A stretch of 63,015 nt of DNA from a bacterium (lineage in GTDB: Bacteria > BMS3Abin14). Position 1 is the stretch's first letter. Each line of letters begins with the position of its first letter. The stretch lies in NCBI GenBank assembly GCA_029210965.1, contig JARGFZ010000002.1, positions 1 to 63,015 of the forward strand, read 5' to 3'. Positions 25,196 through 39,306 of this stretch are shown piece by piece. A model generated the notes under the pieces. The model was not told where the DNA came from. It did no database searches and saw only the letters and a list, made by a program, of their open reading frames with translations. A program made the translations under genes and the position numbers.

Positions 25196-25612
25196 TTATT
25201 TTTTCCCTGCAACTTGAACACGTATTATCGCCTTCTCCAGTCTCACCTTGGCCTCCTCGTACTCAGTGTCTTCCTTGCCTGAGGTGAGGATCTTCTCGGC
25301 TGCCTCCCGGGCGGTCTGGGCCCGGCTCAGGTCGATCTCGGTGGCCTTTTCAGCTGTTTCGGCCAGGACCTTGACGTTATCACTTGTAACTTCGACATAT
25401 CCCCACGAAACGGCCAGATGCTCTTCGGCATTGCCTTTTTTATAGGTGAGCACCCCCACCTTCAGGGCCGTGAGAAAGGGAATGTGGCCGTGCAGGACAC
25501 CGAACTCGCCCTCTATCCCGGGCAGTACCACCTCGTCCACCTCTTCGGAAACAACGATCCTTTCAGGTGTGACGATCTCCAGTCTTATTTTATCTGTGCT
25601 TACATCTGCCAT
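25196..25612 (-). CDS. atpC: ATP synthase F1 epsilon subunit
   Basis: 138 aa. N-terminal beta-sandwich (IRLEIVTPERIVVSEEVDEV ..., PGIEGEFGVLHGHIPFLTAL) and a C-terminal two-helix domain (about 90-135). It links gamma to the c-ring and can inhibit ATP hydrolysis. Last gene of the operon, 13 bp after atpD. Confidence 0.96.
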   Translation of the reverse strand: MADVSTDKIRLEIVTPERIVVSEEVDEVVLPGIEGEFGVLHGHIPFLTALKVGVLTYKKGNAEEHLAVSWGYVEVTSDNVKVLAETAEKATEIDLSRAQTAREAAEKILTSGKEDTEYEEAKVRLEKAIIRVQVAGKK

Positions 25613-25625
25613 AGTTTATTTCCGA

Positions 25626-27041
<1,416 letters not shown>

Positions 27042-28040: not shown

Positions 28041-29558
28041 TTATTCGTAAACGAACTCCGATTTGAAAGCTGCCAGAGCGTCCTCGAGGCTGGCTTTGAT
28101 CTCATCGGTAATTTCCTTCTTTTCGGCCAGGTCCTTTACGAGATCCGAGAACCTGTTGTCCATGAAGTGGTAGATCTCTTCTTCGTATTTGCCGAGGGCC
28201 GCCACCGGATAGTCGTCGAGGTGTCCGTTTGTGGCCGCGTAGATAAGAATGGCCTGCTTCTCCACCGGCAGGGGCACGAACTGGCCCTGCTTGAGGATCT
28301 CAACCAGCCTCTCACCTCTGGACAGCTGCATCTGGGTAGCCTTGTCCAGGTCCGATCCGAACTGGGCGAAAGCTGCCATCTCCCGAAACTGGGCGAGCTC
28401 GAGGCGCAGTCTTCCCGCAACCTGTCGCATAGCCCTGACCTGGGCGGACCCACCGACCCTGGAAACCGAAATGCCTACGTTGATGGCGGGCCGTATACCT
28501 GAATAAAACAGATCCGACTCCAGAAAGATCTGCCCGTCGGTGATGGAGATCACGTTGGTGGGGATATAGGCCGAGACGTCGCCTGCCTGGGTTTCGATGA
28601 TAGGCAGGGCCGTCAGGGAACCACCCCCCTCGGCGTCACTCAACTTGGCGGCGCGCTCGAGAAGCCTCGAATGAAGATAGAAAACGTCTCCAGGATAAGC
28701 TTCGCGTCCCGGTGGGCGCCTGAGGAGAAGGGAAAGCTGCCTGTAAGCTGCAGCGTGCTTTGAAAGGTCATCGTAAACCACCAGGGCGTGCTGGCCGTTG
28801 TCCCGGAAGTGCTCGCCCATGGCGCACCCTGCGAAAGGCGCAAGGAAGAGCAGGGGAGCCGGGTTGCTGGCGGATGCGCTGACAACGATGGTGTATTCCA
28901 TGGCCCCGTTTTCCTCGAGGTCCCTGACCACCCTGGCAACAGTAGACTCCTTCTGCCCCACAGCGACGTAGATACAGATAACGGGATCGTCTGCGTGCTG
29001 CTGGTTGATGATCGTGTCGATAGCCACAGCCGTTTTCCCGGTCTGGCGGTCGCCGATGATAAGCTCCCGCTGACCGCGGCCAATGGGTATCATGGAGTCC
29101 ACAGATTTAAGTCCCGTCTGAAGGGGCTCCTTAACAGGCTGTCTCTTCACGATGCCGGGAGCGATGACCTCCACCAGGCGGGTACCTTCCGACTCGATGG
29201 GGCCCTTCCCGTCAATGGGCTGGCCCAGAGCGTTAACCACCCGGCCAAGCAGCCCTTTGCCCACGGGCACCTCAACGATGCGCCCGGTGCGCTTGACGAT
29301 ATCCCCTTCCTTGATGAGCTGGTACTCACCCAGAAGAACGATACCCACATTGTCCTCTTCGAGGTTGAGGATCATTCCGAAAACCTCGCCCGGCAGCTCC
29401 ACAAGCTCTCCGGCCATGGCGTTCTCAAGACCGTGAACACGGGCGATACCATCGCCTGTGGACAACACAATGCCCGTTTCCTTGACATCAATGGTCTTTT
29501 CGAAACCCTCTATCTGTTTTTTAATTATCTCGGTGATCTCTTCAGCTCTAATCTGCAT
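28041..29558 (-). CDS. atpA: ATP synthase F1 alpha subunit
   Basis: 505 aa, normal length. P-loop [11 protein letters not shown], arginine-finger region [16 protein letters not shown]. The N-terminus begins [20 protein letters not shown]. It carries the non-catalytic nucleotide sites and completes the catalytic interface. It overlaps no neighbour and begins 7 bp after the atpH stop. Confidence 0.98.
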
Positions 29559-29564
29559 CGCGAC

Positions 29565-30110
29565 CTATCTCCCCTTGCTGAGATTGTCCTTTAATTGCGT
29601 TAACTGGTTTTTGATGCTGCCGTCATAGACCTGGCTGCCCATATAGGCAACAACACCCCCGAGGAGGCTTTCGTCTACCTCGACCTCAAGAACCACGTCC
29701 TTTCCCGAGATCTTTGACAGTGCATCTTTCATTCTGCTCTTCTCATTGTCGTCCAAGCGGGCAGCGGTAACGACCCGAGCCCGAATTCTGTTTTCCAGAT
29801 GGTCCGAAAGGTCCCTGTAGGAACGGGCGATCTCGCCCACACCCAGGATCCTGCCTTTCTGGAGAACAACGTGGATGAACTTCATGGTCAGTTCCTGAAC
29901 GCCGCCCTTTTTCAGCACCTCGGACAGGACCTTCTCCTTGGCCCCGGATGCGATTGTCGGGTCAGCAAAAACATTGACCAGTTCATGGCTCTCAGCGAAC
30001 AGGCCGGCTATCCGGTCCAGATCCTGACCTACTTCCTTCAGGATGCCGGCCTCCTGGGCCAGGTCGATGACCGCCTTGGCGTAGCGTCTTGCCAGGACTA
30101 TTCCTATCAC
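29565..30110 (-). CDS. atpH: ATP synthase F1 delta subunit
   Basis: 181 aa. RRYAKAVIDLAQEAG start and the conserved C-terminal VEVDESLLGGVVAYMGSQVYDGSIK. It joins the peripheral stalk (b/b') to the top of F1. It overlaps the atpF 3' end by 4 bp. Confidence 0.96.
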   Translation of the reverse strand: MIGIVLARRYAKAVIDLAQEAGILKEVGQDLDRIAGLFAESHELVNVFADPTIASGAKEKVLSEVLKKGGVQELTMKFIHVVLQKGRILGVGEIARSYRDLSDHLENRIRARVVTAARLDDNEKSRMKDALSKISGKDVVLEVEVDESLLGGVVAYMGSQVYDGSIKNQLTQLKDNLSKGR

Positions 30111-30712
30111 TGGTTAGCCTCCAGTTTTTCGAGATATTCGGTGACGAACCTGGCCTGATCCTCGGGAGTGATGTTCCTGCTGATCATCTCCCGGGCCAGG
30201 GCAACGGCAGCATCTGCCGCCTCTCGCCTGAGGACGTCCTGGGCTTTTTTAAGCTCTTGCTCAATAGCAATGACAGCCTCACCTTTGAGCTTGTCAAGGG
30301 CATTGGACGCCTCGGACAGGATCCGTTCCCGTTCCACCTCGCCCTCCCTGCGTGCGGCTGACAGAAGATCGCTGATCTCCTTATCCACACCAGCCAACTT
30401 GTCGTCAGCCTCTTTCATACGGGCCTCGGAGGCCTTGCGGGACTCCTCTGCCTCTTTCAACAGGGTCCTGACCGATTCGATGCTGTTCCTTATGGCGCTT
30501 ACGATAGGTTTGCGAGCGAAATAAAACAGGACTCCCACGAGAACCGCGAAGTTGATAATGCGCAGCGCCAGGTCCCACAAGGCGCGGCCGGAACCGGCCT
30601 CGCCGCCCTCTGATCCCGAGGCCAGCGCGATGGCAGGGAGGATCAGCAGGGGTATAATGCGGATGAGGTTTCCGGTTAAGGTCCCGATGACAGATCTCAT
30701 GGATACCTTCAC
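30107..30712 (-). CDS. atpF: ATP synthase Fo subunit b (with N-terminal signal-like segment)
   Basis: 201 aa. An extra hydrophobic stretch at about 14-32 (LIRIIPLLILPAIALASG) resembles a signal peptide ahead of the usual b-type membrane helix (about 47-65, LRIINFAVLVGVLFYFA). A long charged coiled coil (70-195) follows. Such N-terminal extensions occur in several Deltaproteobacteria. It pairs with the shorter b' encoded just upstream (4-bp overlap) to make a heterodimeric peripheral stalk. Confidence 0.93.
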   Translation of the reverse strand: MKVSMRSVIGTLTGNLIRIIPLLILPAIALASGSEGGEAGSGRALWDLALRIINFAVLVGVLFYFARKPIVSAIRNSIESVRTLLKEAEESRKASEARMKEADDKLAGVDKEISDLLSAARREGEVERERILSEASNALDKLKGEAVIAIEQELKKAQDVLRREAADAAVALAREMISRNITPEDQARFVTEYLEKLEANQ

Positions 30713-31134
30713 AGCTTCCTCCCCACCAGGTTGGCCGCAATATCAGCGGCAAGAAGCTTCGCGTCAGCCATGAGGGTTACCCGGGAGCTTTCCGCCTGGG
30801 CTGCAAGCTCTCCCCGGGCTGCCTCCAGCTTCTCGGCCCCTGTCAACTTGGTCTCCTGGATCGCCTTTCGAAAGGCCACCATGGCCTCAGTGCGCTCCTT
30901 GGCCCTGATTGCCATGGCCTCCTGTTTGGCAGACAGCAGTTTTCCCTCGTATTCCCCAATGCTCTCTTCAGAGAGCTTTCCAAACTTCGCCTTCAATTCC
31001 GTGGACTCCCTGACGATTTTCTCCCTTTCGTCAAGGATCCGCAGGACCGGCTTGAACAGCAGAAAATTAAGAATAACCAACAAAATCAGGAAGTTGGCAA
31101 GTTGTACCAGTAAAGTAAAGTTGACAGATATCAA
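30709..31134 (-). CDS. atpF': ATP synthase Fo subunit b'
   Basis: 141 aa. A single N-terminal membrane helix (LVQLANFLILLVILNFLLF) followed by the typical KPVLRILDEREKIVRES and a coiled coil to the end. TTG start at 31132-31134. With the longer b it forms the stator; two b-type genes in tandem is the arrangement of photosynthetic bacteria and many Deltaproteobacteria. Confidence 0.93.
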   Translation of the reverse strand: MISVNFTLLVQLANFLILLVILNFLLFKPVLRILDEREKIVRESTELKAKFGKLSEESIGEYEGKLLSAKQEAMAIRAKERTEAMVAFRKAIQETKLTGAEKLEAARGELAAQAESSRVTLMADAKLLAADIAANLVGRKL

Positions 31135-31257: not shown

Positions 31258-31518
<261 letters not shown>

Positions 31519-31531
31519 TTACCTCCTTATG

Positions 31532-31757
31532 TTAATTCGAATTTCAGATTCCAAAGTCCAAACCATAAACTTGATAAAGTCGCAAAAAGTCCAATCCGGG
31601 ACTTTTCGCTCCACGGAAAGGGAAAAGCGTCGTTTTCCCTTTCCTTACAAATCACTGACTTACAGTGAGAGTCATTGATTTGGGCGCCCCGCGCGGGGCG
31701 CATTGATGACTTTTTGCGAGTCCATCAAACTTCAAACACCAAACCTCAAACTCCGAT
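31532..31757. repeat. heptad arrays flanking repeat copy 2
   Basis: 31532-31566 (AATTTCA, GATTCCA, AAGTCCA, AACCATA, AACTTGA) and 31727-31754 (AAACTTC, AAACACC, AAACCTC, AAACTCC) have period 7 and bracket the 160-bp element between the two c-subunit genes. Confidence 0.55.
31571..31727 (+). repeat. copy 2 of the ~160-bp structured repeat, inside the atp operon
   Basis: Outer stem CGCAAAAAGTC ... GACTTTTTGCG. Internal stems GGAAAGGGAAAA/TTTTCCCTTTCC (12 bp perfect), AAATCA-TGACT/AGTCA-TGATTT and GCGCCCCG/CGGGGCGC. It separates the triple-c gene from atpE, so it must be transcribed (antisense orientation) with the operon and could act as a processing or attenuation site. Confidence 0.85.
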
Positions 31758-31758
31758 C

Positions 31759-32505
31759 TTAAACCAACATCAACAGCACCAGCGCGATAACCAGGGCGTA
31801 AATACTTGTGGACTGGGCCACAGCCTGCCCCAGCAGCATGACGCGGGTCAGCAGGCCCACAGCCTGCTCAGGTGCGCGATGATATCTGATGCCCAGAATA
31901 GCTGACTCTCCTGCCATGCCCGACCCCACAGACGGGCCCATGGCACCGAAACCCATACAGATGCCCGCCGACAGAACCGTCATATAATCCACCAATCCGG
32001 CGTCCGGGTTCGGGGATACCGAGAATATGAGCATGAAGGATACAAGAAGGGCGAAGATCAGGGGTGTCTGGCTTATCGCCTGGCCGATGAGCATAAGGGT
32101 CGTAAAGGGCCTGCGGAGGTGGGGCTGCCTGGCGATAGCCTCACAGGCCTGAGCAGCCGGGAGGGCGCTGCCGATACCGGAGGCAAAGGATGCCGCACCG
32201 ATAGAGATCCCGGCGCCAAGGCCGGCAAAGCCCTGAATCAGAGCTGTTCCCTCCCCGGTACCGAAAATCAGCAATATTGCCACGACGAGAGCGAAAGTCG
32301 GCGGTGTGGAGGTGGCGCCCTGACCAATGAGCATGATCCTGAAAAGATCCGAAGAGGTGCCCGGCTGTCTGCCCATGCCCTCCACAGCCGATGCCGCGCC
32401 CATGCCCATCCCGATCCCGGGGCCTACGGCACCGAACCCGACGGCAAAGGCCGCACCCAGGGCGTACATGGCTTTAACGATCAGGGAAACGGCAACTGGA
32501 TCCAA
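31759..32505 (-). CDS. triple-hairpin F-type ATP synthase c subunit lacking ion-binding carboxylates
   Basis: 248 aa, six predicted helices: three fused c hairpins (1-80, 90-160, 173-245) with polar loops R46-Q47-P48, R126-Q127-P128 and an altered third loop R207-Y-H-R-A-P212. All keep the glycine-rich helix 1 (GFGAVGPGIG; GAASFASGIG; GFGAMGPSVG) and the GQ of helix 2. The position of the ion-binding Glu is S66, Q146 and Q231, and the helix-1 partner is M33, S113 and S195. No hairpin should bind an ion by itself. TTG start with AGGAG upstream, 10 bp after atpB. Probably a rotor component mixed with atpE; an assembly role cannot be excluded. Confidence 0.93.
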   Translation of the reverse strand: MDPVAVSLIVKAMYALGAAFAVGFGAVGPGIGMGMGAASAVEGMGRQPGTSSDLFRIMLIGQGATSTPPTFALVVAILLIFGTGEGTALIQGFAGLGAGISIGAASFASGIGSALPAAQACEAIARQPHLRRPFTTLMLIGQAISQTPLIFALLVSFMLIFSVSPNPDAGLVDYMTVLSAGICMGFGAMGPSVGSGMAGESAILGIRYHRAPEQAVGLLTRVMLLGQAVAQSTSIYALVIALVLLMLV

Positions 32506-32515
32506 TCCAACGCTC

Positions 32516-33187
32516 CTAATTGGTGGCCACTGCGATATAGGTAATCGTCAGCATAGTAAAAACGAAAGCCTGCACAGTACCCACGAACAGACCGAAGAAG
32601 ACGTAAAGGAACGGCGGTAAAGCTATGCTGTATACCAGATAGGAGACAACCGAAATGATGATGGCCCCTCCCATGATGTTCCCGAAAAGACGGAAGGAGA
32701 TGGAAACAACCTTTGCCAGCTCCCCGATCATGTTCAGGGGCGCCATAAAAATGAACGGCTCACCGTATTCCTTGAGATAGGGTCCGATCCCTTTTGCCCT
32801 TATAGCTGCCGTATGGGTGAGGAAAAACCCCATTATCCCAAGACTGAGGGGCGTATTCAGATCTTTCGTTGGCTCATCAAACCCCGGGATGATGCCCCAC
32901 CAGTTGCAAAGGATGAGGAAAATGAACATGGTGGCGACAAGGGGGAAATAGGCCCTGCTTGTCGTCTCCAGGGTTTCCTTGGTCATATTATCCATGGCTG
33001 AAATATAAAGCTCGGTGACACGCTGCAGGGGTCCCGGCGTTTCAGTGAGCCTGCTTCTGACCAGGAGGGCCAGGAAAATGAGGACCCCCATGATGATCCA
33101 CGTATTGAATACAGTGACATAGTTGACCGTGAACATCGTTCCCAACAGCTCAAAAGAATAGGTCGGTATGGTGGTCATGTCTCCCAT
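32516..33187 (-). CDS. atpB: ATP synthase Fo subunit a
   Basis: 223 aa, five to six helices. The essential stator Arg lies in SISFRLFGNIMGG, and the C-terminal helix has GTVQAFVFTMLTITYIAVA. The N-terminal YSFELLGTMFTVNYVTVFNT matches the family. It provides the two ion half-channels facing the c-ring. It starts 1 bp after the atpI stop. Confidence 0.96.
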   Translation of the reverse strand: MGDMTTIPTYSFELLGTMFTVNYVTVFNTWIIMGVLIFLALLVRSRLTETPGPLQRVTELYISAMDNMTKETLETTSRAYFPLVATMFIFLILCNWWGIIPGFDEPTKDLNTPLSLGIMGFFLTHTAAIRAKGIGPYLKEYGEPFIFMAPLNMIGELAKVVSISFRLFGNIMGGAIIISVVSYLVYSIALPPFLYVFFGLFVGTVQAFVFTMLTITYIAVATN

Positions 33188-33188
33188 G

Positions 33189-33566
33189 TTACGTTGTTCC
33201 CTGCTCTCTGCCTGCCAGCAACTCCCCGCAGGTCATGGCAAACTGCGATGCGAAGAGGGCTGGAATTGTAGCCCAAAGGGCAATGTTTTCATTTGTGGCC
33301 GAATAAATGAGGACCCCCGCCAGGAGCGACATTCTCAAGGCATATCGCCCGTAGGCTGATCGAAAGCTCTTGCTTTCTATCACAACCCCCTGCTTGCGTA
33401 CATCACCTGCCATAATGACAAGGTTCACCAGGCTGGCCGCTCCGCCCAGAACCACTCCCCGGGCCCACGGCATTCGTTCCACAAAAAGGAAGATGCCTGC
33501 AAATAGGAGGATCAGGGACAGGGTGCCAAAGAAAACCCGGCGCACATATTTGTCAAATGAACTCAC
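33189..33566 (-). CDS. atpI: ATP synthase subunit I (AtpI-like)
   Basis: 125 aa with four hydrophobic segments (about 12-28, 37-52, 78-88, 93-110). Position directly before atpB and the ending ATIPALFASQFAMTCGELL fit the AtpI/ATP_synt_I family. Family members help assemble the c-ring or bind magnesium. GTG start 33564-33566. Sequence conservation in this family is weak, so the call leans on position. Confidence 0.8.
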   Translation of the reverse strand: MSSFDKYVRRVFFGTLSLILLFAGIFLFVERMPWARGVVLGGAASLVNLVIMAGDVRKQGVVIESKSFRSAYGRYALRMSLLAGVLIYSATNENIALWATIPALFASQFAMTCGELLAGREQGTT

Positions 33567-34179: not shown

Positions 34180-35046
34180 TCAGCTGTCGCTTTTCAGTAT
34201 TTTATCAGCAACAGCGTTAAGTTCGTTAAGGTCAGTATATCTGATTTCAAGGCGGCCGCCTTTGCCAGAGCTGTGAATCCGGACGCGGCACCCAAGTTTT
34301 CTGGTCAAACGGTTCTCAAGATCCTTTGACTCGGGGGTATCCCGGCCTGCGATAGTCTTGCGCTCCCTGGTGCCTGAGATCAGCTTCGCCACGCCGCGCT
34401 CAACCTCTCTGACGGACAACCCTTCCCCCAGAATACGGGCCAGTATGGGCCTCATTGCCTTTTCGTCCTTGAGGGGCATGAGAGCCCGGGCGTGACCGGC
34501 GGAAATCCTGTTTGCTGCTAATTCATTTTTCACAAAATCGGGCAGGTTGAGCAACCTGATGGAGTTTGCCACCGTAGCCCTGTCCTTCCCAACCCGGCGG
34601 GCGATCTCCTCCTGCGTGTATTTATTGATGGACTGAAGTTCCCGGTATGCCTGTGCCTCCTCAATGGGGTTCAGATTTTCCCTTTGAATATTCTCAATGA
34701 GGGCCAGCTCCAGCTTCCGGTCATCCTCGATCCGGCGGCACAGGACAGGGATCCTCTCCAGGCCGGCTATGCGTGAGGCTCTCAGTCTTCTCTCTCCGGC
34801 GATCAACTCATAACCACCCGGCACCCTTCTGACCAGAAGAGGCTGAAGCACTCCCTGCTCCCTGATGGAGGCAGCCAGTTCCTGAAGAGCGGTCTCCTCA
34901 AACCGGACCCTTGGCTGTTCAGGGTTGGGAAATACTTCCTGGGTAGCAACCAGGAGAAGCTCTCCCTGAAGTGGGGCCTCACCACCCCCGGGGATAAGAG
35001 CGCCTAAACCCTTTCCGAGAGCCTGTCGTTTACGTTCAGTGGCCAT
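34180..35046 (-). CDS. parB: chromosome-partitioning protein ParB
   Basis: 288 aa. GLGALIPGG near the N-terminus; the CTP-binding ParB/Srx domain with ELIAGERRLRASRIAGL; the HTH with TQEEIARRVGKDRATVANSIRLLNLP; C-terminal dimerisation helix. It binds parS, two copies of which lie nearby. ATG 35044-35046 is chosen with AGGAG seven bases upstream; the TTG immediately before it is also in frame. Confidence 0.97.
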   Translation of the reverse strand: MATERKRQALGKGLGALIPGGGEAPLQGELLLVATQEVFPNPEQPRVRFEETALQELAASIREQGVLQPLLVRRVPGGYELIAGERRLRASRIAGLERIPVLCRRIEDDRKLELALIENIQRENLNPIEEAQAYRELQSINKYTQEEIARRVGKDRATVANSIRLLNLPDFVKNELAANRISAGHARALMPLKDEKAMRPILARILGEGLSVREVERGVAKLISGTRERKTIAGRDTPESKDLENRLTRKLGCRVRIHSSGKGGRLEIRYTDLNELNAVADKILKSDS

Positions 35047-35062
35047 CAATGATCTCCTGGTT

Positions 35063-35150
35063 ATCTCAGATCTCAGGTCTCAGATCTCAAATCTCAGAGC
35101 CCAGGTACCGGAGAAGTTGTCGGTAGTGGTCAATTTTGAGATTTGAGATC
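35063..35150. repeat. inverted pair of TGAGATY heptads between parA and parB
   Basis: Arm 1 35063-35097 (ATCTCAG, ATCTCAG, GTCTCAG, ATCTCAA, ATCTCAG); arm 2 35135-35150 (TTTGAGA, TTTGAGA). Same family as the hisF/hisIE arrays. Confidence 0.65.
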
Positions 35151-35916
35151 AATTTCTTTTTCCGTTCAACATCTCCTGAGCCAGGGCCAGATAGCTCTGC
35201 GAACCCGGGGAATTGATATCGTAAAGGATCGCTGGCTTCCCGTAACTTGGAGCTTCGCTCAGTTTGACGTTTCTGGGAATCGCGGTGTTAAATACCTTTC
35301 CAGGAAAATAATTCCTGGCCTCTTTTGCCACCTGGTGGGAAAGGTTGTTCCGGGGATCGAACATGGTCAGAAGGATCCCCTCCAACTCCAGCTGTGGGTT
35401 CAACGCCCCTCTTACGAGCTTGATCGTGGCCAAAAGGCTTGAGAGACCCTCCAGAGCATAATACTCACACTGGAGGGGCACCAGCACACTGTCAGCAGCA
35501 GTAAGGGCGTTCAGGGTCAAAAGTCCCAGGGATGGCGGACAGTCGATAAGAATGTATTCGTAAGGCTCCTTTAACGCTCCCAGCGCCCTTGTCAGGATCG
35601 TTTCTCTGGAAAGGGTGGAAACCAGTTCAATTTCCGCCCCGATGAGGCTCACGTGAGAAGGCACTAAGTCCAAAAATTCCATCCCGGTTGTTCTGATGAC
35701 CTCTTTTATGGGCACGTTGGAGATCAGCACCTGGTAGATGGAGTCCTCGAGATCCCCAGCTCTGACACCCAACCCACTGGAAGAGTTAGCCTGGGGATCA
35801 AGATCCACCAAGAGGGTCTTTCTTTCAGCAGCCGCCAGAGAAGCCGCAAGGTTCACCGCTGTTGTGGTTTTCCCTACGCCGCCCTTCTGGTTCGCAACGG
35901 TGATGATTTTAGCCAA
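35149..35916 (-). CDS. parA: chromosome-partitioning ATPase ParA (Soj)
   Basis: 255 aa. Deviant Walker A NQKGGVGKTTTAVNLA at about 9-24, LLVDLDPQANSSSG, and Walker B ILIDCPPSLGLLT. The short form without an N-terminal HTH is typical of chromosomal ParA. It moves ParB-parS complexes. TTG start 35914-35916. Confidence 0.96.
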   Translation of the reverse strand: MAKIITVANQKGGVGKTTTAVNLAASLAAAERKTLLVDLDPQANSSSGLGVRAGDLEDSIYQVLISNVPIKEVIRTTGMEFLDLVPSHVSLIGAEIELVSTLSRETILTRALGALKEPYEYILIDCPPSLGLLTLNALTAADSVLVPLQCEYYALEGLSSLLATIKLVRGALNPQLELEGILLTMFDPRNNLSHQVAKEARNYFPGKVFNTAIPRNVKLSEAPSYGKPAILYDINSPGSQSYLALAQEMLNGKRN

Positions 35917-35927
35917 GGGAGCATCCC

Positions 35928-35967
35928 GTGATTGCGTGTGTGCGTGAATGCGTGTGTGCGTAGATCA
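35928..35967. repeat. octad array GTGATTGC/GTGTGTGC
   Basis: GTGATTGC, GTGTGTGC, GTGAATGC, GTGTGTGC, GTAGATCA: five 8-bp units upstream of parA. A weak opposite arm (GCACGCCTTACGGACG) follows at about 36004-36020. Confidence 0.6.
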
Positions 35968-36010
35968 TCAAAGAAATGCCCTTCGAGATTTATTCTTACG
36001 GATGCACGCC

Positions 36011-36124
36011 TTACGGACGTACGTGCCGCCTTATTAATCGTTTCCCTTCCAGACGAGTGAAAAATACGGCCAGAAGGAGGAGTTTGGTTAGCAAATAGAT
36101 GGCGACAAGGGTTTTTGTGCTCAT
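36011..36124 (-). CDS. possible 37-aa single-helix membrane peptide
   Basis: ATG 36122-36124 preceded by AAGGAT at 5-6 bases. The product has one hydrophobic segment (LVAIYLLTKLLLLAVFF) and a basic tail (RLEGKRLIRRHVR). It lies in the parA-rsmG gap, same strand. Not recognised; supported only by the ribosome site and the membrane-like composition. Confidence 0.35.
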   Translation of the reverse strand: MSTKTLVAIYLLTKLLLLAVFFTRLEGKRLIRRHVRP

Positions 36125-36321
36125 TATATCCTTATATATCAAGGTTTTACGATAATTTATCTGGTCTCGGAAGTTTTTTCGGTTGTCCTTAGCCCTGTTG
36201 TGGCTCCCATCGTCAGATCGTGAACTGAAAACTAATATAGACTGAAGGAAAAGTCCAGAGTCCAGAGAAAAATCATCCCAAAAGACTGAAACTCGGAACC
36301 TTAGGTCACGAAGTGGGCGAA

Positions 36322-36337
36322 TGTTTCACGTGAAACG
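36322..36337. promoter_or_regulatory. parS site 1
   Basis: TGTTTCACGTGAAACG, 15 of 16 bases of the ParB consensus TGTTTCACGTGAAACA. It lies between rsmG and parA, a usual location close to the origin. Confidence 0.93.
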
Positions 36338-36357
36338 TTCGCCCCCTTTGTGGGCTC

Positions 36358-36490
36358 AGGTCCAAAGACCAAGGTCCAAAGGCCAAAGAATTGCCTGATA
36401 AAAACCTTTTCCAGTGCTTCGGTTTCTTTAAGCCTTAAGCCTTAAGCCTTAAGTTTTTGGGCTTTGGGCTTTGGGCTTTGGGCTTTGGGC
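36358..36490. repeat. inverted heptad arrays reaching into rsmG
   Basis: 36358-36392: AGGTCCA, AAGACCA, AGGTCCA, AAGGCCA, AAGAATT. 36428-36490: TTAAGCC three times, TTAAGTT, then TTTGGGC five times, nine units in perfect register. The CCAAAG core of arm 1 is complementary to CTTTGGG of arm 2. Positions 36442-36490 are also the last codons of rsmG. Confidence 0.7.
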
Positions 36491-37110
36491 TGGATTGTAA
36501 TTTCCCAAATTACTGATGGCACTTTTGATCCCGGTACCTGATATGGGTGTATCCTTCCCAGCCCCTCATCCGCCAACGCTTCGGTTGTGTATACCAGCAG
36601 GCGTCCACCGGGGGCAAGGAAAGGACGGGCAAGGTCCAGCATCTTCCAGGGCTTGGCCGCTGCCCTGCTGACGGCCGTGTCGAAATATCCAGCCCACCCA
36701 CTATTAATCAACTCCTCAAAGCGCCCCTCCAGCACCTGCGCCTCGCTGACATCCAGCGCTCTTATAAGATGCTTTAACCAGGTACACTTCTTACCGGAAG
36801 CTTCCGCCATGCACAGGGAAATACTTTCCCGTGCGATTTTAAGGGGCACCCCCGGGAACCCTGCTCCGGCCCCCAGGTCCACCACCCGGCCACCCTTCCC
36901 CAGCAAACCGAGGGCCAGAGGTGCCAGGGAATCCAGGAAATGTATGCTGATCCAGTCGTGGGGGCGGCGAGATACCAGGTTGACCTTGCGGTTCCAACGC
37001 TCCAGCTCGGTGTAGAAGACAAACAACCTGACGAGGGCCTCATCTGATACTTGAATGCCCATAGCAGTCACACCGTTGCTCATCTGGGATATGAAGGAGG
37101 CCTTATCCAT
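36442..37110 (-). CDS. rsmG: 16S rRNA m7G527 methyltransferase RsmG (GidB)
   Basis: 222 aa. SAM site VVDLGAGAGFPGVPLKI at about 73-90, then ALDVSEAQVLEGRFEEL and TAVSRAAAKPWKMLDLARPF. It methylates G527 of 16S rRNA. The C-terminal tail (AQSPKPKAQKLKA) is read from a heptad repeat and is not part of the family fold. It follows mnmG with repeat copy 3 between. Confidence 0.94.
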   Translation of the reverse strand: MDKASFISQMSNGVTAMGIQVSDEALVRLFVFYTELERWNRKVNLVSRRPHDWISIHFLDSLAPLALGLLGKGGRVVDLGAGAGFPGVPLKIARESISLCMAEASGKKCTWLKHLIRALDVSEAQVLEGRFEELINSGWAGYFDTAVSRAAAKPWKMLDLARPFLAPGGRLLVYTTEALADEGLGRIHPYQVPGSKVPSVIWEITIQPKAQSPKPKAQKLKA

Positions 37111-37211
37111 CGGTTGTTTGTCTACCTCGTGATTGCGTAGAGCGTGAATGCGTGAAGATTATATTTGCGCGTGGAGCGTGATTGTGTAAATGAATTCCAT
37201 GTTTTTAACTA

Positions 37212-37371
37212 TTGATAGAGTCGCAAAAAGTCCAATCCGGGACTTTTCGCTCCACGGAAAGGAAAAAGCGTCGTTTTTCCTTTCCTTACAAATCAATAAC
37301 TTACAGTGCGAGTCATTGATTTGGGCGCCCCGCGCGGGGGCGCATTGATGGACTTTTTGCGAGTCCATCAA
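37212..37371 (+). repeat. copy 3 of the ~160-bp structured repeat
   Basis: Begins 4 bp after the mnmG stop. Outer stem CGCAAAAAGTC/GACTTTTTGCG; stem GGAAAGGAAAAA/TTTTTCCTTTCC (12 bp; paired G-to-A and C-to-T change relative to copy 2); AAATCAAT-ACT/AGT-ATTGATTT; GC hairpin CGCCCCG/CGGGGGCG. Confidence 0.85.
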
Positions 37372-37374
37372 CTA

Positions 37375-39306
37375 TTAGCCTGCAGGTTTTTCCTTTCCTT
37401 CCTGCGTGCTGCGTGCTGCGTCCTGCGTCCTGCCATTGATATAGATCATTAACGCCGACACAGCCGCCGGGGTGATCCCCGGTATCCGGGAGGCCTGTCC
37501 GAGGCTGACTGGGCGAACATCCTCAAAGCGGTCGCGCACCTCCCTTGAGAGAGAGCGCAGAGATGCATAGTCAAGATCTTCCGGTATGGCCATGGATTCC
37601 AGTCGCGCCATTTTCCCCACCATGGCCGTCTGCCTGGCAATGTATCCTTCGTACTTGATCTGAATCTCCACCTGTCTTGCAGCCTTTTCTTCGCGTATGG
37701 GGGAAAACCCCAGGTCAAGGCTTTCAAGGTCCTCGTAGGAGATCTCAGGCTGCTTCAGGACCTGGGTGAGGGAGGTTCCTTTTGGCGGTCCTCCTGCCAG
37801 GCTTACAGTAACCCTGTGGTTTCTGACCGCCTCAAGGCCACTCTCTATCACTCTAACCTTCTCTCGAAGCTGCCCGATCTCCTCCTCGGTAATGAGACCG
37901 GCCATGTATCCCTTTTCCATGAGCCTAAGGTCTGCGTTGTCTTCACGGAGGATAAGTCGGTATTCAGCCCGTGAGGTGAACAGCCTGTAAGGTTCAGTGA
38001 CACCCTTCGTTATCAGGTCATCCACAAGGACTCCCATGTAGGCCTCATCCCTGCCGAGGGTGAGGGACGGCTCTCCCTTCACCTTGAGGGCTGCGTTAAT
38101 GCCCGCAAGCAGGCCCTGTGCCGCTGCTTCCTCGTAGCCTGAAGTGCCGTTGATCTGTCCGGCCAGGTAAAGTCCATGGACCGCCTTGACCATGAGGTCC
38201 GGCCCCAGCTGTGTCGGGTTGACAAAGTCGTACTCTATAGCATAGCCCGGCCGCATGATCTGGACCTCTTCAAGACCCTGGATCGTGCGCAGCATCTTGA
38301 CTTGAACGTCAATGGGCAGGCTTGTGGAAACACCGTTAGGGTAATATTCCCTGGTTTGAAGCCCTTCGGGCTCGAGAAAGACCTGGTGTCCTGTCTTGTC
38401 GGGGAAACGAACGATCTTGTCCTCAATGCTGGGGCAGTACCTGGGCCCCACCCCTTTGATGACACCTTTGTAAAGAGGAGACCTGTCGAGCCCGCCCCGG
38501 ATGGCATCGTGAGTGGCCTGGTTTGTCCTTGTGATCCAGCACGGGACCTGGGGGCGATGGATCCCTCTGGTTTTGAAGGAAAAGGGTTGGGGAACTTCAT
38601 CACCGTACTGCGCCTGGCAGCGGTCAAAGTCTATGGTTTTTGCGTCTAACCTTGGAGTCGTGCCTGTTTTGAGCCTTCCCATCTTGAGATCCAGAGCCCC
38701 GAGAGCGCTGGACAGGTCGGTGGAGGGAAACTCCCCTGCCCTCCCGGCCGGATATTGCGTCATGCCAATATGGATCAGGCCGTTAAGAAAAGTGCCCGAT
38801 GCCACCACCACCGTGCTGGATAGAAACTCCTCACCGGCATGGGTGTAGACACCTCCGATCCGGCGTACACCCTTCCCCTCTTCCATCAGGAAACCTTCCA
38901 CCATGCCCTGTTTAATATGCAGCCCCTCCTGAGCTTCAAGGCGCTCCCGGACCCAGGTTTTATACCCGTACATATCGGCCTGGGCTCTGGAGGATCTAAC
39001 TGCCGGGCCCTTTTTCGTATTGAGTATCCTGTATTGAATACCGGTGGCATCGATGGCCATGGCCATGAGGCCCCCAAGGGCGTCGATCTCTCGAACCAGG
39101 TGTCCCTTTGCCAGCCCGCCAACAGCCGGGTTGCAGGACATGTGGGCTATCTGGTCAATGGAGATGGTGAGCAGCAGGGTTGTCATGCCCATACGGGCAC
39201 TTGCCCACGCCGCTTCACACCCTGCGTGACCAGCTCCTATCACGATGACATCGTAACGGGTGGAGTCCTGGTAACGGGGGGGATCAGGTATAATCTCAGA
39301 TTTCAT
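37375..39306 (-). CDS. mnmG: tRNA uridine 5-carboxymethylaminomethyl modification enzyme MnmG (GidA)
   Basis: 643 aa. FAD-binding IVIGAGHAGCEAAWASARMG at about 25-44, SCNPAVGGLAKGHLVREIDALGG, the QINGTSGYEEAAAQGLLAG signature and the C-terminal IPGITPAAVSALMIYI tRNA-binding domain. With MnmE it modifies U34 of several tRNAs. The first ~15 residues and the last ~18 (RTQDAARSTQ) are encoded by heptad repeats, so the true ends may be shorter. Confidence 0.96.
   Translation of the reverse strand: MKSEIIPDPPRYQDSTRYDVIVIGAGHAGCEAAWASARMGMTTLLLTISIDQIAHMSCNPAVGGLAKGHLVREIDALGGLMAMAIDATGIQYRILNTKKGPAVRSSRAQADMYGYKTWVRERLEAQEGLHIKQGMVEGFLMEEGKGVRRIGGVYTHAGEEFLSSTVVVASGTFLNGLIHIGMTQYPAGRAGEFPSTDLSSALGALDLKMGRLKTGTTPRLDAKTIDFDRCQAQYGDEVPQPFSFKTRGIHRPQVPCWITRTNQATHDAIRGGLDRSPLYKGVIKGVGPRYCPSIEDKIVRFPDKTGHQVFLEPEGLQTREYYPNGVSTSLPIDVQVKMLRTIQGLEEVQIMRPGYAIEYDFVNPTQLGPDLMVKAVHGLYLAGQINGTSGYEEAAAQGLLAGINAALKVKGEPSLTLGRDEAYMGVLVDDLITKGVTEPYRLFTSRAEYRLILREDNADLRLMEKGYMAGLITEEEIGQLREKVRVIESGLEAVRNHRVTVSLAGGPPKGTSLTQVLKQPEISYEDLESLDLGFSPIREEKAARQVEIQIKYEGYIARQTAMVGKMARLESMAIPEDLDYASLRSLSREVRDRFEDVRPVSLGQASRIPGITPAAVSALMIYINGRTQDAARSTQEGKEKPAG
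37404..37431. repeat. heptad array inside the mnmG 3' end
   Basis: GCGTGCT, GCGTGCT, GCGTCCT, GCGTCCT: four units that encode part of the MnmG C-terminal tail. Confidence 0.6.

Follow-up and report, generated by a model that had tools for sequence, protein, structure and literature searches.

Must every position in the rotor of an ATP synthase carry an ion? The carboxylate with which a c subunit binds the coupling ion has been treated as indispensable, whereas whole lineages described here retain rotor subunits in which one to five positions are blank; some of these lineages, including the one from which we start, retain c subunits without any ion site. Our starting point is a gene in the window, i.e. 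the whole 63,015-nucleotide stretch that was analyzed (GenBank assembly GCA_029210965.1, contig JARGFZ010000002.1; GTDB lineage BMS3Abin14). An original prediction, made from the sequence alone, described its product as three fused c hairpins in 248 residues with the ion-binding Glu replaced in each, and that description stands, as do the gene's coordinates; the strand had to be corrected to minus, since the plus-strand translation contains a stop, and the frame runs from a TTG start at 32505 to 31759. Pfam finds the ATP-synt_C family (PF00137) three times in this protein, hereafter triple-c (113 bits in total; cut-off 24), and both the translation and a readout with a hairpin hidden Markov model (HMM) place Ser66, Gln146 and Gln231 of hairpins 1, 2 and 3 in the column where helix 2 of an F-type PF00137 subunit is expected to have Asp or Glu. 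At the helix-1 ligand position, which is Gln32 or Glu32 in other Na+ rotors, the first hairpin of triple-c has Met33 and the other two each have Ser; with S/Q/Q in one place and M/S/S in the other, its sites thus lack both main ligands. The surrounding rotor features are kept, as had been predicted: the glycine-rich helix 1 and the GQ motifs are present, and hairpin 3 has S232, T233 and Y236 of an S-T-x-x-Y motif. We consider triple-c to be, probably, a minor, non-ion-carrying arc in the mixed c-ring of a Na+-type F1Fo ATP synthase, where it would lower the number of Na+ ions per ATP.

Could such a protein simply be a relic? If triple-c were a decaying paralogue, its function lost and its gene on the way out, the missing ion-site residues and the TTG or GTG starts of several members would fit; however, the gene is intact in all 12 genomes sampled from the phylum (one family, eight genera), some of them single-contig chromosomes, and the S/Q/Q pattern is therefore neither chance nor an assembly error. 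Hairpin 2 has Gln in 12 of 12 genomes, as does hairpin 3 in all nine in which it is readable, and hairpin 1 has Ser in ten and Glu in two, both of genus g4. Counts of third hairpins here and below leave out L009 and L038, where this hairpin is interrupted by a stretch of N, and L017, L018 and L042, which run off their contigs. Close relatives are accordingly S/Q/Q or E/Q/Q and never E/E/E, so the window copy is no decayed allele. Between genera, nonsynonymous divergence (dN) is low, at about 0.06–0.40, while synonymous divergence (dS) is about 1–2 or saturated for each of the three hairpins, and codons vary beneath fixed residues (TCC, TCT or TCG for Ser66; CAG or CAA for Gln231). Because low dN stands against near-saturated dS, and Ser66 and Gln231 persist through synonymous change, these sequences point to purifying selection on an acid-free protein. 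We therefore reject a pseudogene and regard decay as extremely unlikely. In a tree of AtpB, all S/Q/Q members group together with the E/Q/Q genus as their sister (support for the S branch, 86/52 and 95/75), and for this reason the simplest reading would be that the last carboxylate was lost once, from an E/Q/Q ancestor with one ion in hairpin 1. The Ser66 state goes along with loss of the helix-1 Glu and with a conserved S-T-P-P-T-F stretch.

Does triple-c keep the company of a working rotor? Its gene lies between atpB and a normal atpE within a complete F-ATPase operon, whose order on the minus strand is bactofilin, atpI-like, atpB, triple-c, atpE, atpF', atpF, atpH, atpA, atpG, atpD and atpC (Table 1). 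The normal c gene with E66 had been predicted correctly. Its product, AtpE, has E33, E66, S67, T68 and Y71 where the Na+ ligand set calls for Gln/Glu32, Glu65, Ser/Thr66 and Tyr70, a motif that suggests a Na+-type F1Fo; a two-carboxylate ring of the N-type is specific for H+ (PMC5376962). Identity to AtpE is highest for hairpin 3 (55%, compared with 47% for hairpin 1 and 45% for hairpin 2), which would fit a triple-c gene that arose from tandem copies of a c gene, hairpin 3 being closest to the product of the neighboring atpE. An AlphaFold2 model built from a 39-row homologue alignment has helical hairpins throughout (predicted local distance difference test, pLDDT, 94; predicted template modeling score, pTM, 0.89); a shallower input of nine relatives gave a pLDDT of 40 and was discarded. 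The top Foldseek match of the model is 4bem_J (3e-7; TMt 0.81), followed by V-type c/K subunits, and the top phmmer match among PDB sequences is likewise 4bem_J (5e-18), which reads E and then Q. By sequence and predicted fold, then, the nearest characterized relative of triple-c is the c1 subunit of Acetobacterium woodii (E/Q; PDB 4bem_J).

How far does this likeness go? In A. woodii and Clostridium aceticum, as in the window, an F-type operon carries the fused-hairpin gene next to that of a normal Na+ c, and a later hairpin has Gln in place of the carboxylate (Q146 and Q231 in triple-c); one c1 hairpin reads Q..ET and the other Q..QT (PMC7911925). The original prediction's remark that no such F-type case was known did not hold, given this Gln in hairpin 2 of both c1 proteins and the recurrence of carboxylate-free versions elsewhere (see below), and its interpretation overall is partly supported. 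A. woodii c1, part of an F/V-hybrid rotor (4BEM chain J), has two hairpins and keeps the hairpin-1 carboxylate, whereas triple-c has three hairpins and none, with S66 in hairpin 1; the companion c of triple-c has Glu at the helix-1 ligand position, that of the A. woodii system Gln. For the A. woodii enzyme, a value of n = 3.3 ions per ATP is assumed (PMC5662883). The V-type c/K subunits (Enterococcus hirae NtpK, eukaryotic V-ATPase c) also combine fused hairpins, carboxylate loss and a lower ion/ATP ratio (in the case of triple-c, a presumed one), but they have one carboxylate per four helices, fill all ring positions with the fused type and belong to V-type operons, whereas triple-c sits in an F-type operon without V/A-type gene company. 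The methanogen A-type K subunits (the Methanocaldococcus triplication and the 13-hairpin protein of Methanopyrus) share with triple-c three or more fused hairpins, but are archaeal and A-type and are not known to share the ring with a separate normal c. Unlike triple-c, the Methanopyrus protein has all Na+ ligands in 13 of 13 hairpins (PMC2359735). The c subunit of Fusobacterium nucleatum resembles AtpE of the window in its site of two Glu plus Ser/Thr/Tyr (PMC3692424), but forms a homo-oligomeric c11 ring without a fused subunit. A further comparison is with multi-hairpin c1 proteins of Desulfobacterota (E/Q/Q to E/Q5), which match triple-c in operon place, Gln substitutions and 38–47% identity; unlike triple-c, they keep both site Glu residues in hairpin 1, and one ion site remains. 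Judged from these comparisons, triple-c appears to be the A. woodii c1 design taken further, to its extreme.

How widespread, then, are blank hairpins? Profile and protein searches of 395 Desulfobacterota-type genomes (phylum of G041), 98 genomes of a syntrophic Clostridia-type class and 193 Omnitrophota-type genomes, together with a further set of 386 genomes, most of them sampled from across the domain, yielded 75 distinct multi-hairpin or blank c proteins. The patterns counted include E/Q (11), E/Q/Q (10), E/Q/Q/Q (7), E/Q/Q/E (7), E/Q/Q/Q/Q/Q (3) and E/E/E (3), and c1 proteins of two to six hairpins, from E/Q to E/Q/Q/Q/Q/Q, occur in Desulfobacterota and other lineages. Wherever both genes could be placed (60 of 60 loci), the multi-hairpin gene is upstream of the normal c, mostly no more than 125 nucleotides (nt) away. 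About 16 of the 75 have no carboxylate in any readable hairpin: besides S/Q/Q in the window's phylum, these include a four-hairpin G/Q/Q/Q protein (L191), G/Q proteins in three genomes (L140, L199 and L201, the last at a contig end), an A/Q protein in a metagenome-assembled genome of Syntrophomonadaceae (L046) and single-hairpin Ser paralogues in two genomes (L135 in G037, L175 in G675), which are encoded between atpI and atpB with a normal atpE downstream of atpB. Gene context was read at L135, L174, L175, L191, L199 and L201, and all six sit among atp genes. The hairpin-1 helix-1 ligand of the carboxylate-free proteins is M, I, L or A and never Gln or Glu. An AtpB tree computed without L191 and L135 requires five changes to the carboxylate-free state, at least four of them forced by well-supported branches; these sequences suggest that such forms arose at least 4–5 times, the exact number being unsure because of long branches in the tree. 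Since the triple-c gene is kept across its lineage and similar proteins recur elsewhere, it appears that certain bacteria make rotors in which some positions are blank and the number of ions spent per ATP is altered.

The searches also turned up variants on the same theme. For example, six-hairpin proteins of three Desulfobacterota-type loci (L095, L098, L107) have one Glu and five Gln and are encoded beside a normal atpE, making a half-blank rotor possible; three Omnitrophota-type loci (L138, L139, L141) encode a three-hairpin c with Glu in all three, again beside a normal atpE; and two genomes of 1.2–1.3 Mb (G013 and G988; L019 and L203) encode a divergent four-hairpin c-like protein that reads E/Q/E/D. 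A candidate c subunit with Arg at the ion site (L120) was dropped for its broken frame and weak score. Our literature search found no description of Desulfobacterota multi-hairpin c proteins or of a carboxylate-free c. Brandt and Mueller (2015) reportedly named some twelve anaerobes in which a single operon combines an F-type with a V-type c gene, and part of the wider multi-hairpin set may already figure there. The wider set, with its three to six hairpins, up to five blanks and independent carboxylate-free cases, appears to be undescribed in the literature searched. It adds many candidates, beyond A. woodii-type c1, for how energy-limited anaerobes tune ATP synthesis; natural rings of this kind would test how far a rotor turns without ions at the stator and whether gearing evolves by added blanks or by changed ring size.

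What would a blank arc do? We infer its place in the ring and its effect on gearing from an intact gene in this operon position, from the predicted fold, and from the conservation and recurrence of such proteins; an AtpE with the full Na+ motif, a subunit a with its Arg and genes for Rnf A–E in the genome also count in favor. Few copies of triple-c, probably one, would join many AtpE subunits, as A. woodii c1 does, and each would fill three adjacent c-ring positions without carrying ions there, its neutral Ser and Gln residues passing the stator Arg without loading an ion. Three fewer ions would then be moved per turn for three ATP, and the mixed ring with fewer ion sites envisaged in the original prediction stands as plausible. 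An 11-hairpin ring with one triple-c would move 8 ions per 3 ATP (2.67, compared with 3.67 for AtpE only), and simple arithmetic at 40 kJ/mol gives a required ion-motive force of ∼155 mV for 8/3, versus 113 mV for the all-AtpE ring. Eleven hairpins were found in all Na+ F-type rings characterized by 2013 (PMC3692424). Fewer ions per ATP would come at a price, either in a higher ion-motive force or in a lower phosphorylation potential; a blank arc would favor ATP-driven pumping against a steep gradient. A minor subunit should also be translated sparingly, and of 45 pairs compared, 38 have weaker Shine–Dalgarno pairing for c1 than for the c that follows it (mean difference, 3.5 kcal/mol; p = 5.5e-6, a value that treats the pairs as independent and is too small because they are related to each other), as would be expected of a minor subunit.

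Several considerations weigh against this picture. Ring membership is read from genes and a predicted fold, Shine–Dalgarno pairing predicts copy number only weakly, and the value of 2.67 ions per ATP is illustrative only, since it assumes 11 hairpins and an N-type ring has 17 (PMC5376962). More pointedly, one E56Q hairpin in the c10 ring of Bacillus PS3 stopped ATP synthesis (Mitome 2004, quoted in PMC8809890). In yeast, subunit a has four of the ten c subunits opposite it (PMC8809890), and three adjacent blanks would make up about one in four positions of an 11-hairpin ring, much the same span as faces subunit a, leaving nearly the whole interface ion-free at one stage per turn. This gap would have to be crossed on stored elastic energy or avoided in a larger ring, or else triple-c would act as a brake.

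Might braking be the point? Triple-c could enter the ring only under some conditions and stop the motor, or gate it one way, saving gradient or ATP in starvation, because three successive blanks could not load ions at the a/c interface. The PS3 result agrees with this, as does a second, H+-type a/c module in genomes of the phylum, owing to which the Na+ motor need not run constantly. We nevertheless find a brake quite unlikely: the gene is inside the operon, with no separate control seen except the downstream repeat in the window genome, A. woodii-type rings function with a blank hairpin, and the E/Q5 proteins of Desulfobacterota would all be brakes in a main operon. A structural or assembly role, in which the fused hairpins nucleate or complete the ring or set its size or the docking of gamma and epsilon, with ion-site loss tolerated rather than selected, would accord with the AtpI-like gene in the operon and with the hairpin-3 loop, which is longer than that of AtpE and has conserved Arg207, His209 and Pro212. 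Ion sites, however, disappeared several times and did not return, 39 proteins show at least 90% conservation of Q146, and the blanks vary from one to five, superfluous for pure seeding; as the whole explanation this is unlikely, but an assembly role and a blank arc are not mutually exclusive. A further alternative is a stand-alone membrane protein derived from c (a pore, a lipid-binding protein or other). The absence of a carboxylate would suit it, but the gene's place beside atpE in an ATPase operon, seen at 60 of 60 loci, the retained glycine-rich helix 1 and GQ motifs and a fold matching a c-ring chain make it very improbable.

The two c genes lie further apart in the window than in relatives. 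Between them lies an inserted repeat of the type of a miniature inverted-repeat transposable element (MITE) or repetitive extragenic palindrome (REP), whereas the gap in relatives is only ∼41–123 nt. Both window copies are ∼160 nt long, with a 128-nt core that is 95% alike and inverted ends of 21–23 nt; the RNA folding of the intergenic copy has z = −5.35, and this copy may shift the ratio of triple-c to AtpE in the window strain. Genes resembling parA/parB and mnmG (gidA) adjoin the atp operon both here (34180–39306) and in the distant genome G037 (L135).

Table 1. Window features at the triple-c locus (positions counted from the first nucleotide of the window)
Feature	Position	Strand	Evidence or remark
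AtpI-like protein (assembly factor family)	33189..33566	-	PF03899
atpB (subunit a), stator Arg in SFRLFGN	32516..33187	-	PF00119, 162 bits; motif
Triple-c ribosome-binding stretch, weak: taggagcgttgga before TTG	32506..32519	-	duplex -7.6 kcal/mol; overlaps atpB stop
Three-hairpin carboxylate-free c subunit (c1-like)	31759..32505	-	translation, PF00137 x3, hairpin-HMM readout, AlphaFold, Foldseek
Inserted MITE/REP-like repeat between triple-c and atpE	31571..31728	.	inverted ends, strong RNA folding; second copy 37212-37371
atpE ribosome-binding stretch, strong: ataaggaggtaacaa before ATG	31516..31535	-	duplex -12.5 kcal/mol
atpE, single-hairpin c, Na+-type two-carboxylate site (E33, E66, S67, T68, Y71)	31258..31515	-	sequence, hairpin-HMM readout, Pfam
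atpF' (subunit b/b')	30709..31134	-	PF00430
atpF (subunit b)	30107..30712	-	PF00430
atpH (delta)	29565..30110	-	PF00213
atpA (alpha), Walker A GDRQTGKT intact	28041..29558	-	translation
atpG (gamma), sole F-type gamma found in window genome	27121..27978	-	PF00231
atpD (beta), Walker A GGAGVGKT intact	25626..27041	-	translation
atpC (epsilon), putative	25196..25612	-	position and sequence appearance

Is the window operon the only ATPase of its genome? Besides it, the window genome (G000) has a V/A-type ATPase, with a c gene elsewhere (G000:C2:132499), and a second F-type a/c pair. The latter is part of an H+-type atpI-atpB-atpE set located between cytochrome and complex I genes (contig C33, 9.7–11.3 kb; L133). 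In most genomes of the phylum there are two F-type a subunits along with two kinds of c, whereas an F-type gamma match was found in 10 of 12, complete genomes included, with exactly one in nine of them and a second, divergent one in G001. A single gamma against two a subunits and two kinds of c makes it possible that two interchangeable Fo modules use a common F1 head, one H+-type (a2/c2) and the other Na+-type, its blank arc crossed on elastic energy alone; we offer this tentatively and consider it doubtful, but if true, the cell could drive its one F1 in two gears and with two coupling ions. Genes for RnfA, B, C, D and E occur at two places in the window genome, C, D and E on one contig and A and B on another (L131, L132; C1 and C44), and the complete relative G003 has two genes of the Rnf-Nqr family 707 kb apart.
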